A stretch of 12,815 bases of DNA from Candidatus Bathyarchaeota archaeon (GTDB taxonomy: Archaea; Thermoproteota; Bathyarchaeia; Bathyarchaeales; Bathycorpusculaceae): assembly GCA_018396935.1 (NCBI GenBank), contig JAGTRA010000021.1, positions 1 to 12,815 on the forward strand, read 5' to 3'. Shown piece after piece: positions 4,022 to 6,466 of this stretch; position 1 is the first letter of the stretch, and the number at the start of each line of letters is the position of its first letter. Under the pieces are notes generated by a model that had not been told where the DNA came from, made no database searches, and saw nothing but the letters and a program-made list of their open reading frames with translations. Made by a program: the position numbers and the translations under genes.

Positions 4022-5068
4022 TTACTTAGTCATATTTTTGTAAAGGGCAGGATGGGTTATGTCTTCGCTTTTGTCGATGGATTGGATACGCATAGGTTTA
4101 TCAGGCTTCAAAATGAGTTTTGGTTTTCCGAGAACTTCAAACCGGAAAAGGGCTGATTTATACCAGTTTACTCCAGGATTCCTGCCGACTTCGAATCCTA
4201 TATATTTAACAAAAGCTTCATAGTTTGCGTCACATCCATAATCCATGGGATATACTGAAAATCCTTGTATTATATCTGTTATCACACAATTCATTCTGGA
4301 TAAAAGCTTCTGAACAGCAAGCCACTTTTTATGGGATGCTTCATAATGGGTTAATCCGAAATAGCCTACACCATTCTCCTTTAGACAGGCGACACCCCTA
4401 CTTATAAAGGCTCGAAGCCCGGATAGAGTTTCAAGAGGTTCAGAGGAGAAGACGTCAAATTGACCACGCAGTGATTCAGGCAGGGGGTCAGCGACGTTAT
4501 ACCGTATGAACTCTATTGAAAATCCATATTCCCCATTTACTTTTTCCAAGAATTCGCCTAGGCGTGAATCTATATCCAGTACCACTATTCGAGACGGAAG
4601 TCTCGTTAAAGCTAATGCAACACTTAAGAGGTCATCATCGCCTATCATTACAATTGATTTCCCATCAAGGTCATGGTAGTAATGCATTAAGGCAGTTCTC
4701 GCAATGACGTCTTCCTCAAGCATGTAACCTTGGAAGTATTCAAGGGTGGGAGTTGGCCTATTTGAGGATATGCGTTTAAAATCTTCAAGAATCTCTTTAA
4801 ACCTTCCCTCAGCTATTACTCGCTTTCCAGCACAATTGGGGCATATTCTCGTCTCAATTTTCAGAGATTCAGGGTTAACACTACGCTTGCCCTTCTCTGT
4901 TAAATAGAAAGCACCACCATCAATAGCTATCAGACCATCATCTATAAGCTTCCTTAAGACATTAATGAAGTCTTTAAGGGGACAATTGGAGATATCAAGA
5001 AGCTCCCAAATGCTTCTACCCTTATATGCGAGAGCTGTTATGATTCGTGATTCAATTCTCCCCAACAA
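4022..5068 (-). CDS. bpsA: N4-bis(aminopropyl)spermidine synthase (branched polyamine synthase, DUF43)
   Basis: BpsA transfers two aminopropyl groups from decarboxylated SAM to the N4 of spermidine, giving a quaternary branched polyamine that stabilises nucleic acids in thermophiles. The 348-residue protein has an N-terminal winged-helix region (about 5-65), a CPNC pair (76-79), and a Rossmann-type domain with the diagnostic GDDDLLSVALALT (143-155; the GDDD motif is the established catalytic signature), the acidic strand end VVLDIDSRL (162-170), and the FSSEPLETLSGLRAFISRG block (207-225). Many relatives have D-P-P where this one has S-E-P, a conservative change. The start is TTG at 5068 with GGAGGG (5075-5080) 6 nt upstream; it overlaps the end of speD by 17 nt, which supports coupled expression with the enzyme that makes its co-substrate. 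Confidence 0.92.
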   Translation of the reverse strand: MLGRIESRIITALAYKGRSIWELLDISNCPLKDFINVLRKLIDDGLIAIDGGAFYLTEKGKRSVNPESLKIETRICPNCAGKRVIAEGRFKEILEDFKRISSNRPTPTLEYFQGYMLEEDVIARTALMHYYHDLDGKSIVMIGDDDLLSVALALTRLPSRIVVLDIDSRLGEFLEKVNGEYGFSIEFIRYNVADPLPESLRGQFDVFSSEPLETLSGLRAFISRGVACLKENGVGYFGLTHYEASHKKWLAVQKLLSRMNCVITDIIQGFSVYPMDYGCDANYEAFVKYIGFEVGRNPGVNWYKSALFRFEVLGKPKLILKPDKPMRIQSIDKSEDITHPALYKNMTK

Positions 5069-5402
5069 AGATATCCCTCCTTATAATACGCTTTTCAACA
5101 GCTTCAGGTTTAAACTCTTCTAATAGTAACTGAAAAGCCTTTAAAGCAGGCTCATCATCTCCACAGGTGAAAATATCCAAAGCCATGTACCTATACTCGG
5201 GCCATGTATGAACACTAAAGTGAGATTCACTCAAAAGGTAAATGGCAGAAACACCATAAGGCTGGAATTGATGAAAACTTGAAGAAACAACATGCAATCC
5301 AGATTTAGCAACTATGCTATCCAAAATTGGGCGAAGGACTTCCACACGGGAAATCTTGCTTGGATCCACTCCTCGAAATTCGGCGATAATGTGGATGCCC
5401 AT
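5052..5402 (-). CDS. speD: S-adenosylmethionine decarboxylase proenzyme
   Basis: SpeD decarboxylates SAM to supply the aminopropyl donor for polyamine synthesis; it self-cleaves at Glu-Ser to make a pyruvoyl cofactor. The signature LSESHFSVHTWPEYRYMALD followed by IFTCGDD is intact. Counting from ATG 5402, cleavage is E59-S60, with H65 and C80 as the processing and catalytic residues. A GTG at 5411 would add three residues and gives the same numbering as the Thermotoga enzyme (E62/S63, H68, C83). I prefer ATG 5402 because GGGTG lies 6 nt upstream. Its 3' end overlaps bpsA. Arginine decarboxylase of the crenarchaeal SpeD-derived type cannot be excluded from sequence alone, but the bpsA neighbour favours SAM as substrate. 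The start codon sits in a large hairpin loop. Confidence 0.93.
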   Translation of the reverse strand: MGIHIIAEFRGVDPSKISRVEVLRPILDSIVAKSGLHVVSSSFHQFQPYGVSAIYLLSESHFSVHTWPEYRYMALDIFTCGDDEPALKAFQLLLEEFKPEAVEKRIIRRDIFVGEN

Positions 5403-5436
5403 ATGGAACACCCAACATTATCGTCGAATTTCGAGG
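5371..5436 (-). promoter_or_regulatory. Long hairpin enclosing the speD start codon
   Basis: The arms 5371-5394 and 5412-5436 are inverted copies: 23 of 24 positions pair, with one C-A mismatch in the transcript (5383/5424) and a single-base bulge (5414). The 17-nt loop (5395-5411) contains the speD ATG (5400-5402), and the GGGTG ribosome-binding site straddles the top of the stem. The 3' arm encodes the first residues of SpeD (IHIIAEFRG), so the upstream arm is an antisense copy of coding sequence. A stem of this length would be expected to restrict initiation, pointing to translational control of speD. The structure is directly visible; the regulatory role is inference. Confidence 0.72.
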
Positions 5437-5461
5437 TCAGCTGTACAGATGACAGCCGACC
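5435..5461 (-). promoter_or_regulatory. Second hairpin in the speD leader
   Basis: In the minus-strand transcript ggtcggctgt (5461-5452) pairs with acagctgacc (5444-5435) over 10 bp, including one G-U pair, with a 7-nt loop. It shares two bases (5435-5436) with the foot of the start-codon hairpin, so the two stems either stack or compete by strand migration. Together they fill the leader between the predicted transcription start and speD. Confidence 0.55.
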
Positions 5462-5463
5462 AT
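5437..5463 (-). other. Possible 8-codon upstream ORF in the speD leader
   Basis: From the ATG at 5463 the leader reads M-V-G-C-H-L-Y-S and stops at TGA (5437-5439), exactly over the upstream hairpin. A second ATG at 5467 in another frame opens 51 codons that run through the start-codon hairpin and end inside speD at 5312. Neither has a well-spaced ribosome-binding site (AGAGG at 5479-5483 is 11 nt from the 5467 ATG). These may be chance ORFs; they are listed because ribosomes on them would disturb the hairpins. Confidence 0.2.
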
Positions 5464-5500
5464 GCATATACTTTCTATCCTCTAGGCTCTTCTCCAATTA

Positions 5501-5517
5501 AGTTTATTATATAAACT
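5501..5517 (-). promoter_or_regulatory. speD promoter (TATA box within a palindrome)
   Basis: agtttat-tat-ataaact is a perfect 7+7-bp inverted repeat. On the minus strand it contains TTTATATAA preceded by a purine-rich AAAA stretch, a good archaeal TATA box. A start about 25 nt downstream would fall near 5482-5488, giving a leader of roughly 80 nt, unusually long for this genome region and just long enough to hold both hairpins. Confidence 0.55.
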
Positions 5518-5557
5518 TTTTGGAGTTTAACCAAGCTTTCAAGAATAAATTGAGAAG

Positions 5558-6466
5558 TCAACCAAGCACTTTCATTAGAATGGCTTTTGCTGAATATAGG
5601 CGGTTCTCGCTTTGCTCATATATTATAGATCTAGGGTCTTCTATCATGTCTGCAGAAATTTCATAGCCCCTATGGATAGGCATATCATGCATAATGTAGG
5701 CGTTACTATCCTTCAACAAATCCCTATTTACTTGATATGGCATCATAAGCTTAATGCGTCTTTCTTTTTCCTCAGCATATTTTGGGTCTAGGAAGAACTC
5801 CATGTCAACCCATGTATCAGTATAAACGAAGTCTGCGTCTTTAACAGCCTCTCTGACATCTAAAGTTGTGGTCCACAACCCTGTTTTCCTAGCTTCCTCG
5901 AGGAGTTCATCATCTCTGCTGTGTTCGTTAAAAATTGGAGTTACTGTTGTAATTTTAACGCCCACTTTTGTACAGCCTTCAATAAGCGAATTGCACACAT
6001 TATTATGAACTCCTATATAGACGAGTTTAACCCCTTTTAGGCGTCCCATCTTCTCCTTAATGGTCATTAAGTCGGCTATAACCTGGCTTGGGTGATATTT
6101 CTCGTCACATCCATTAATTACGGGAACTTTTGATGCTTTAGCCATAACTTGTAGGTCTGCATGTCTAAGTAGTCTAGCCATTATGCAGTCAACATTTCTA
6201 GAAAGATATTGAGTCTCATCGTATATGTCTGCGATGGTGAAATTTGTTGTTCTCCAGTCGATGTAAATGGCGTGACCACCCATTTGAGTCATAGCTACTT
6301 CGAAGGAGACTCTTGTTCGAGTTGAGGTTTTCTGGAATATCATCGCCAGAGACATGCCATCTAAGGCTTTTCGGTATTTTTCAGGGTTATATTTAACCTC
6401 TATAGCCTTGTCAATCAGTTCTAAAAGCTCTTGACTTGATAGGTTCTTAAAATTGAGTAAATGCAT
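5558..6466 (-). CDS. Ornithine carbamoyltransferase-like enzyme with altered substrate pocket
   Basis: The 302-residue protein is an aspartate/ornithine carbamoyltransferase superfamily member. The carbamoyl-phosphate site is intact: STRTR (48-52), R98 in MARLLRH, and HPSQ (125-128, usually HPCQ in OTC). The amino-acid side differs. The OTC loop D-x-x-x-S-M-G reads D217-T-W-V-D221-M222-E, and the catalytic HCLP reads H260-D-M-P, followed by IHRGYEI. The N155-N156 pair that contacts ornithine is kept. OTC enzymes use the missing Ser and Cys for ornithine, so a plain argF assignment is doubtful. The new Asp at position 221 would suit a substrate with an extra positive charge; with speD-bpsA downstream on the same strand, a di- or polyamine substrate is a reasonable guess. 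GGGTGG (6473-6478) gives a good ribosome-binding site. Confidence 0.75.
   Translation of the reverse strand: MHLLNFKNLSSQELLELIDKAIEVKYNPEKYRKALDGMSLAMIFQKTSTRTRVSFEVAMTQMGGHAIYIDWRTTNFTIADIYDETQYLSRNVDCIMARLLRHADLQVMAKASKVPVINGCDEKYHPSQVIADLMTIKEKMGRLKGVKLVYIGVHNNVCNSLIEGCTKVGVKITTVTPIFNEHSRDDELLEEARKTGLWTTTLDVREAVKDADFVYTDTWVDMEFFLDPKYAEEKERRIKLMMPYQVNRDLLKDSNAYIMHDMPIHRGYEISADMIEDPRSIIYEQSENRLYSAKAILMKVLG

Follow-up and report, generated by a model that had tools for sequence, protein, structure and literature searches.

Genes for S-adenosylmethionine decarboxylase (AdoMetDC) in mammals and plants carry regulatory upstream open reading frames (uORFs), with ribosome stalling that depends on the peptide sequence, and uORF2 of ATF4 is an inhibitory uORF that overlaps the main start. 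In phage MS2, the coat and lysis genes overlap by 50 nt, and the structured downstream start is thought to be opened by ribosomes on the overlapping ORF, according to an RNA-unfolding model outlined in a review (PMC12548453); one E. coli study treated there found translational coupling lost at an overlap of 25 nt (PMC12548453). Cis control of polyamine-linked genes by leader RNA is described for a bacterial spermidine riboswitch (PMC10853860). Control by a start hairpin that is crossed by an upstream ORF is already known in kind. Searches of the open-access literature on leaders of archaeal SpeD/AdoMetDC genes, on hairpin-bearing upstream ORFs in archaea and on polyamine riboswitches yielded no description of a conserved leader ORF overlapping the hairpin-locked start of an archaeal metabolic gene, and the arrangement reported here, an archaeal polyamine-operon start hairpin crossed by an upstream ORF with unconserved peptide, looks undescribed.

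The window, i.e. the whole stretch of 12,815 nucleotides analysed here, belongs to contig JAGTRA010000021.1 of a Candidatus Bathyarchaeota genome (1.08 Mb, 155 contigs, 75% complete). Its minus strand carries speD (5052..5402; PF02675 E 6e-35; TIGR03330 120.1 bits, cut-off 75.65), the product of which is, judged by family models over their cut-off, S-adenosylmethionine decarboxylase. The gene for branched-chain polyamine synthase, bpsA (4022..5068, minus strand; PF01861 E 1.2e-69), overlaps the speD 3' end, and an ornithine carbamoyltransferase gene is located upstream of speD, on the minus strand as well. The speD start codon ATG (MGIHIIAEF..., 5400..5402, minus strand) is placed where close homologues align from the identical residue; an alternative in-frame GTG is found 9 nt 5' of it, at 5411. 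Some SpeD homologues decarboxylate arginine or ornithine, as reported in PMC10407285, and the SpeD of the window might use one of these substrates.

At this start, comparison of related sequences shows a conserved hairpin that holds the Shine-Dalgarno (SD)-like site and AUG of speD, with the first speD codons as its 3' arm. It also shows a short leader ORF, mostly with an SD site of its own, that crosses the entire hairpin out of frame without a stop; its stop codons begin 59-95 nt inside speD. Leader frame (+1 or +2) and leader peptide are free to change. The reading tentatively favoured here, at a little under even chances, is a cis-acting translational gate on the speD-bpsA operon, in which the hairpin would shut the start and leader-ORF ribosomes would unlock it. 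As in MS2 coat-lysis, a downstream start would be silenced by RNA structure, and an overlapping upstream ORF ends within the downstream gene. The upstream ORF of MS2 is, however, a structural gene and not a short leader with unconserved peptide, its overlap measures 50 nt against stops beginning 59-95 nt inside speD, and it belongs to a phage, whereas speD is part of a chromosomal archaeal metabolic operon in which dependence on the leader is hypothetical. The eukaryotic AdoMetDC uORFs share with this locus the enzyme step and upstream-ORF control, but they act in a peptide-dependent manner, while the speD leader peptide is unconserved and the start hairpin is central; the comparison gave no evidence of common descent. 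ATF4 uORF2 likewise is an out-of-frame ORF overlapping the main start by tens of nucleotides, but archaea lack cap scanning and use SD-driven starts, and an extra start hairpin is present here. The spermidine riboswitch, as far as described in PMC10853860, differs in that no aptamer-like conserved fold is seen in the speD leader outside the start hairpin.

The start hairpin appears in the window as an inverted repeat (5371-5392 / 5415-5436, 95% complementary), which ranks highest among the 8 inverted-repeat pairs listed for the window at a spacing of up to 300 nt. Minus-strand RNA of 5340-5490, the segment that the initial annotation had proposed for folding, folds to -61.7 kcal/mol, whereas shuffled sequences average -39.4 ± 4.5 (z -5.0), and none of 200 shuffles does as well. 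The stem of this 151-nt fold consists of 10 + 9 + 8 = 27 pairs, two outermost pairs being lost to a neighbouring hairpin; folded alone (-46 to +42 of speD), it possesses 12 + 9 + 8 = 29 pairs. An A.C mismatch and a bulge of one base separate its blocks; the innermost 8 bp, including G.U pairs, close a 5-nt loop. The 5' arm (5406..5436, minus strand) is supported by fold, inverted repeat and covariation, and the 3' arm in speD codons 1-11 (5371..5400, minus strand) by fold and covariation, besides synonymous constraint on codons 2-11. The predicted loop (5401..5405, minus strand) contains A and U of the start codon (5402-5400), the G being paired. GGGUG (5409..5413, minus strand), the SD-like site of speD, is predicted to be paired within the stem; SD matches were called with the general archaeal anti-SD sequence, on which the speD call relies because no 16S rRNA match was found in the host genome. 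A local hairpin GGUCGGCUGU...ACAGCUGACC at 5435-5461 (minus strand), within the leader ORF, competes with the two outermost start-hairpin pairs and is, by eye, not common to relatives.

The initial annotation had described a near-perfect hairpin at 5371-5436, with arms of 24-25 nt and a 17-nt loop holding the ATG. Repeat, fold and occurrence in relatives bear out the hairpin itself, with a stem longer than claimed; the 17-nt loop gives way to the 5-nt one, the rest of the 17 nt being mostly paired, and the ATG is only partly looped out. Its further remark that nothing comparable precedes other genes agrees, as far as tested, with a folding comparison over 130,556 bases of the host genome (the window and pieces of 20 other contigs), in which the segment -46 to +42 of speD (-41.7 kcal/mol) ranks first among 147 ORF starts (first ATG taken), followed by a runner-up at -27.4. 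Sliding 88-nt windows over the same bases place only 1 of 12,890 below the speD hairpin (-45.1 vs -42.8); several other top-scoring ones resemble tRNA or rRNA sequence by eye.

SpeD matches at E 0.001 are present in 20 of the 60 nearest genomes, 44 of 162 genomes of the order and 92 of 256 genomes of the class, own genome counted each time; the other 164 class genomes have no match at this threshold. Close MGIH-type SpeD (E <= 5.8e-45) is found in 36 of the 92, and only a more distant SpeD homologue in 56. The set of 38 loci studied here combines 35 close-SpeD loci with three further records (L025, L030, L032). bpsA adjoins speD, following it, in 37 of these, so that the element would govern decarboxylated SAM supply and branched-polyamine synthase jointly. 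The exception, L052 in genome G127, has no adjoining BpsA match and reads MGIYII for MGIHII and HTWPK for HTWPE; its speD is perhaps a decaying copy.

The extended hairpin was assigned to 21 of the 38 loci, imperfectly in L025 and L032. In L019 and the families f9, f27 and f25, folding predicts mainly a core of roughly 8-10 bp around the speD start; the best folds predicted for L014 and L018 (both f9) lack even this, and in f11 the same segments pair more weakly. The speD start carries the hairpin or its inner core across Bathyarchaeota-type genomes, and a downstream SD site and AUG enclosed in a stable hairpin, as in the MS2 type, occur with the extended stem in the 20 loci counted, the structure being weaker elsewhere. 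No hairpin core was seen by eye upstream of distant SpeD homologues in four loci (L065-L067, L069). Two irregularities recur at fixed places in the stem: a mismatch, mostly A.C, at 5424/5383 and one bulged base, which differs in identity between loci, at 5415 (columns 25/67 and 34 of alignment A2).

Covariation was assessed for 29 pairs in 20 of the 38 loci with 500 shuffles and five measures. None of the shuffles reaches the observed share of paired cells (93.8%, shuffle mean 90.2), the number of cells with both sides changed (25, mean 10.1) or the covariation score (0.220, mean 0.156); the other two measures are weak, in that 19 of the 500 shuffles match the count of six pairs altered on both sides and 82 match the count of pair types. 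Pairing falls to 38-50% in these 20 loci if the partner is slid by 1-3 columns. RNAalifold recovers 27 pairs of the start stem unaided from the 20-locus set and keeps only 4 core pairs over all 38 loci; a single class-wide structure is not supported. Synonymous identity of speD codons 2-11 is 0.81 versus 0.50 elsewhere in the gene (pairwise, 21 loci; permutation P 1e-5). An alignment for compensatory changes, as the initial annotation had suggested, thus displays both conservation and covariation, and the lack of either, which it had named as counter-evidence, did not occur.

A covariance model of the hairpin matches in 33 of 256 class genomes at E <= 0.1, always at speD; 18 of these 33 had been used in building the model. 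It misses three (G055, G183, G184) of the 36 close-SpeD genomes. Eleven genomes of a 398-genome phylum sample match at E <= 0.01, each already found in the class search. The element was detected nowhere else than at speD, neither in the class (E <= 0.1) nor in the phylum sample (E <= 0.01), under strict filters that lose weak matches. Outside the class, in the 13 of 14 phylum loci that were readable, SpeD mostly possesses an N-terminal extension preceded by an SD-like run, by eye. Chance or artefact as the origin of the hairpin was rejected on shuffles, covariance-model matches, the ranking over 130,556 bases and the stem in separately assembled genomes; an assembly artefact in particular is very unlikely because separately assembled relatives carry the same stem. 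An Rfam search of 4900-6000 gave at best 28.2 bits, for a microRNA hairpin family with a gathering threshold of 95; no score near the gathering threshold occurs in this segment, and no known RNA family was identified there.

Upstream of the hairpin, a TATA box TTTATATAA of the leader promoter is located at 5507..5515 (minus strand), which, by the archaeal rule for the distance from TATA box to start site, would put the transcript start just 5' of the SD site of the leader ORF. In 27 of 30 loci, a TATA-like hexamer precedes the start of the leader ORF by about 42-58 nt (mostly about 48-54), a count made without chance control. The SD site, GAGGA at 5478..5482 (minus strand), belongs to a block found in 30 loci, which reads GAGGATAG in most f1 loci and AAGGAG or AAGGGG in f9. 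The leader ORF itself (5312..5467, minus strand) comprises 51 codons from an ATG at -65, is out of frame with speD and ends 91 nt inside it; read from an upstream TTG, it extends as 5312-5497. Promoter, SD site and leader ORF start are the only shared leader blocks visible beyond the hairpin, and no metabolite aptamer was found in the speD leader. The translational switch responsive to polyamine, SAM or temperature that the initial annotation had envisaged is strengthened in its first half by a conserved, covarying, start-sequestering structure; a specific sensor finds no support, there being no Rfam match and no other leader blocks than these three. That account recognised the hairpin and missed the leader ORF, the adjoining bpsA and the restriction of the outer stem to part of the class.

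With an anchor rule requiring an SD core 45-105 nt upstream of speD and an ATG 9-19 nt after the first SD base, the leader ORF is anchored in 31 of the 38 loci; its ATG is situated between -52 and -77 in 30 of them and at -31 in the other, L062. Each of the 31 ORFs continues without a stop beyond the speD start, in a frame that differs from that of speD by an offset of 1 in 25 loci and of 2 in 6; from the same point, the other out-of-frame reading stays open in 7 of these loci and the speD frame in 6. Leader stop codons begin at +83 (20 loci), +88 (6), +59 (3), +80 and +95. An out-of-frame ORF passing through the hairpin and ending in the downstream gene is thus shared with the MS2 type in 31 of 31 anchored loci, and loosely in the other 7 of the 38, whereas the overlap, with stops from +59 to +95 in the 31 loci, lies outside the measured coupling range of about 50 nt. 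When the variable segment alone, from ORF start to hairpin, is shuffled, 19 of the 31 ORFs are expected to be open (product probability 1.5e-7; 1.6e-4 for 17 representatives), and a shuffle extended to -1 gives 8e-10 for the 17 representatives; these probabilities are not strict because the loci are related. A similar rule asks for an ATG between -110 and -25 that follows an SD site and begins an out-of-frame ORF open to at least +30. It is satisfied by 31 of 38 loci, by 0 of 118 long-ORF starts of the host genome and by 0 of 13 outside-class speD genes, with control start codons guessed (first ATG, or nearest SD-bearing start) and a 14th outside-class locus unplaceable.

The remaining seven loci likewise have an out-of-frame ORF crossing the speD start, which makes 38 of 38 by a loose rule: GTG replaces the leader ATG in L016; the ATG has no clear SD site in L056, L019 and L063; it follows GGTG at -25 in L064; and in L059 and L061 it stands at -19, behind a strong SD site. 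Loci of f9 and f27 with a short hairpin core still keep the leader ORF. Six f9 loci (L017, L047, L049-L051, L053) have TTG at the usual speD start and an in-frame ATG 9 nt upstream, right after GGUGG, and many other loci have GTG at -9 of speD; the true speD start may differ from the assigned one.

The peptides encoded at offsets 1 and 2 are unrelated in sequence, and pN/pS of the leader ORF (0.69) is little below that of the other two readings of the same DNA (0.89 and 0.82; 18 aligned pairs), so that selection on the peptide was not found. Nascent-peptide control, in which the leader peptide would stall the ribosome on polyamine as in the mammalian AdoMetDC leader, could appeal to the regulatory upstream ORF of the eukaryotic counterpart of the same enzyme; with two frames encoding unrelated peptides and a pN/pS of this kind, it is very improbable. 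Still less credible is programmed frameshifting that fuses the leader ORF to speD with the hairpin as stimulator. An out-of-frame ORF does run into a strong hairpin, as such a device would have it, but offsets of 1 (25 loci) and 2 (6 loci) would require opposite shifts, the segment before the hairpin is variable, and no conserved slippery site was seen in it; frameshift fusion was rejected on the occurrence of both offsets. The conserved property is rather that a ribosome coming from near the 5' end can read out of frame through the hairpin and well into speD.

Opening the initiation site is predicted to cost about 20 kcal/mol at 37 °C and 9.5 kcal/mol at 70 °C (mean of 21 loci; extrapolated parameters). 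Useful speD translation seems to need aid because of this cost, and the leader-ORF ribosome is the only candidate aid in evidence. For the stem of the window, the predicted stability is -12.8 kcal/mol at 70 °C and declines to -6.1 at 80 °C and 0 at 90 °C. Regulation by the hairpin alone, as a thermosensor, a polyamine-tightened stem or a protein operator with the leader ORF as a by-product, would draw on this predicted fading between 80 and 90 °C, on the strength and conservation of the stem with its conserved mismatch and single bulge, and on the branched polyamine reported in PMC12979288 to stabilise RNA and affect translation. It is nevertheless improbable: it leaves unexplained why the leader ORF is open, has an SD site and is absent at 118 other starts, and why f9 and f27 loci retain it with a short core.

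Equilibrium folding around a ribosome footprint gives little support to a passing ribosome as a simple key. By the time the P-site of a leader-ORF ribosome has reached about +25 to +30, the speD start is no more open than in free RNA; the opening cost of -15 to +12 at 70 °C drops at best from 9.5 to 6.4 kcal/mol (P-site +28, extended loci), and the aid amounts to 0.3 kcal/mol in 11 core-only loci. Among the positions modelled, exposure of the speD start is best at P-site +20, where the ribosome still crowds it. Simple equilibrium unlocking is not supported by these results, which cover P-sites outside -29 to +19, and unlocking would have to be a kinetic hand-over, since equilibrium folding gives little ribosome help.

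The same results bear on a double lock, in which the leader ORF is inhibitory: direct entry would be blocked by the hairpin, and ribosomes loaded at the 5' end would cross the speD start out of frame and be released too deep in speD for restart, keeping SpeD very low until leader initiation drops and the hairpin loosens, as at low polyamine or in heat. Several observations would fit: the leader ORF shares the speD frame in 0 of 31 anchored loci, the peptide sequence is not conserved, the hairpin recloses behind the ribosome in the folding model, and stops lie at +59 or beyond, past the re-initiation range as reported in a review (PMC12548453). Yet the hairpin alone already costs about 9.5 kcal/mol (70 °C) or 20 (37 °C), so that a second lock would seem superfluous; there is no visible ON state, and hairpin and leader ORF co-occur in all 38 loci. 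The double lock is accordingly a possible but doubtful explanation, and unlocking is favoured over it because both parts co-occur in the whole set and the hairpin needs no second lock.

In the favoured translational gate, the leader ORF would be translated by ribosomes and the hairpin alone would be too stable for useful speD initiation; from these two premises, speD, and hence bpsA, would be made mainly via leader-ORF ribosomes. A passing leader ribosome would strip the 3' arm off the SD site, and a new small subunit might briefly be able to bind, with SpeD output tracking the frequency and slowness of leader-ORF reading. More speculatively, polyamines, as the operon product, could feed back on the gate, either by making the hairpin tighter or by making the ribosome faster. 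For Thermococcus kodakarensis, PMC12979288 reports that branched polyamine has a stabilising effect on RNA, RNA polymerase and ribosomes and changes translation; the operon content and these published effects make a polyamine input plausible. That the whole forms a class-wide feedback switch, with an obligatory sequence-free leader ORF as input and a start hairpin tightened by branched polyamine as gate, is on balance rather unlikely; if true, it would work with ribosome and hairpin only, with no aptamer and no regulatory peptide, and would have been placed independently on the enzyme step that eukaryotes control with uORFs. If the favoured gate is confirmed, archaea would gain leader-ORF control of polyamine synthesis in parallel to the eukaryotic AdoMetDC uORFs. 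Since its peptide can vary freely, the locus would also offer a clean natural example in which effects of ribosome transit can be told from those of the peptide.

Several minor features accompany the element. At speD codon 28, D is encoded by GAT in 34 of 37 cases versus 98 of 168 elsewhere in speD, and R at codon 29 by AGR in 28 of 30 versus 145 of 221, which together create the TAG at +83 in the +1 frame. Eight offset-2 loci (6 anchored, L019 and L056) also have GAT though not using the +83 stop, and for this reason the bias cannot be linked clearly to the leader ORF, nor read as selection acting on the leader stop. A second hairpin within speD, from +25 to +50, is seen by eye in L004, L006, L017 and L032, e.g. 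TTTCGGGG/CCCCGAAA; it could compete with the outer stem, and is perhaps a mere consequence of the F-x-G-V-D-P-x-K codons. In many loci, the leader ATG begins a segment of approximately ATGCnnnGTyGGC (5467-5455 in the window), and UCGGC of this leader-ORF start, absent in several loci by eye, could pair with GCCGA of the 3' arm.
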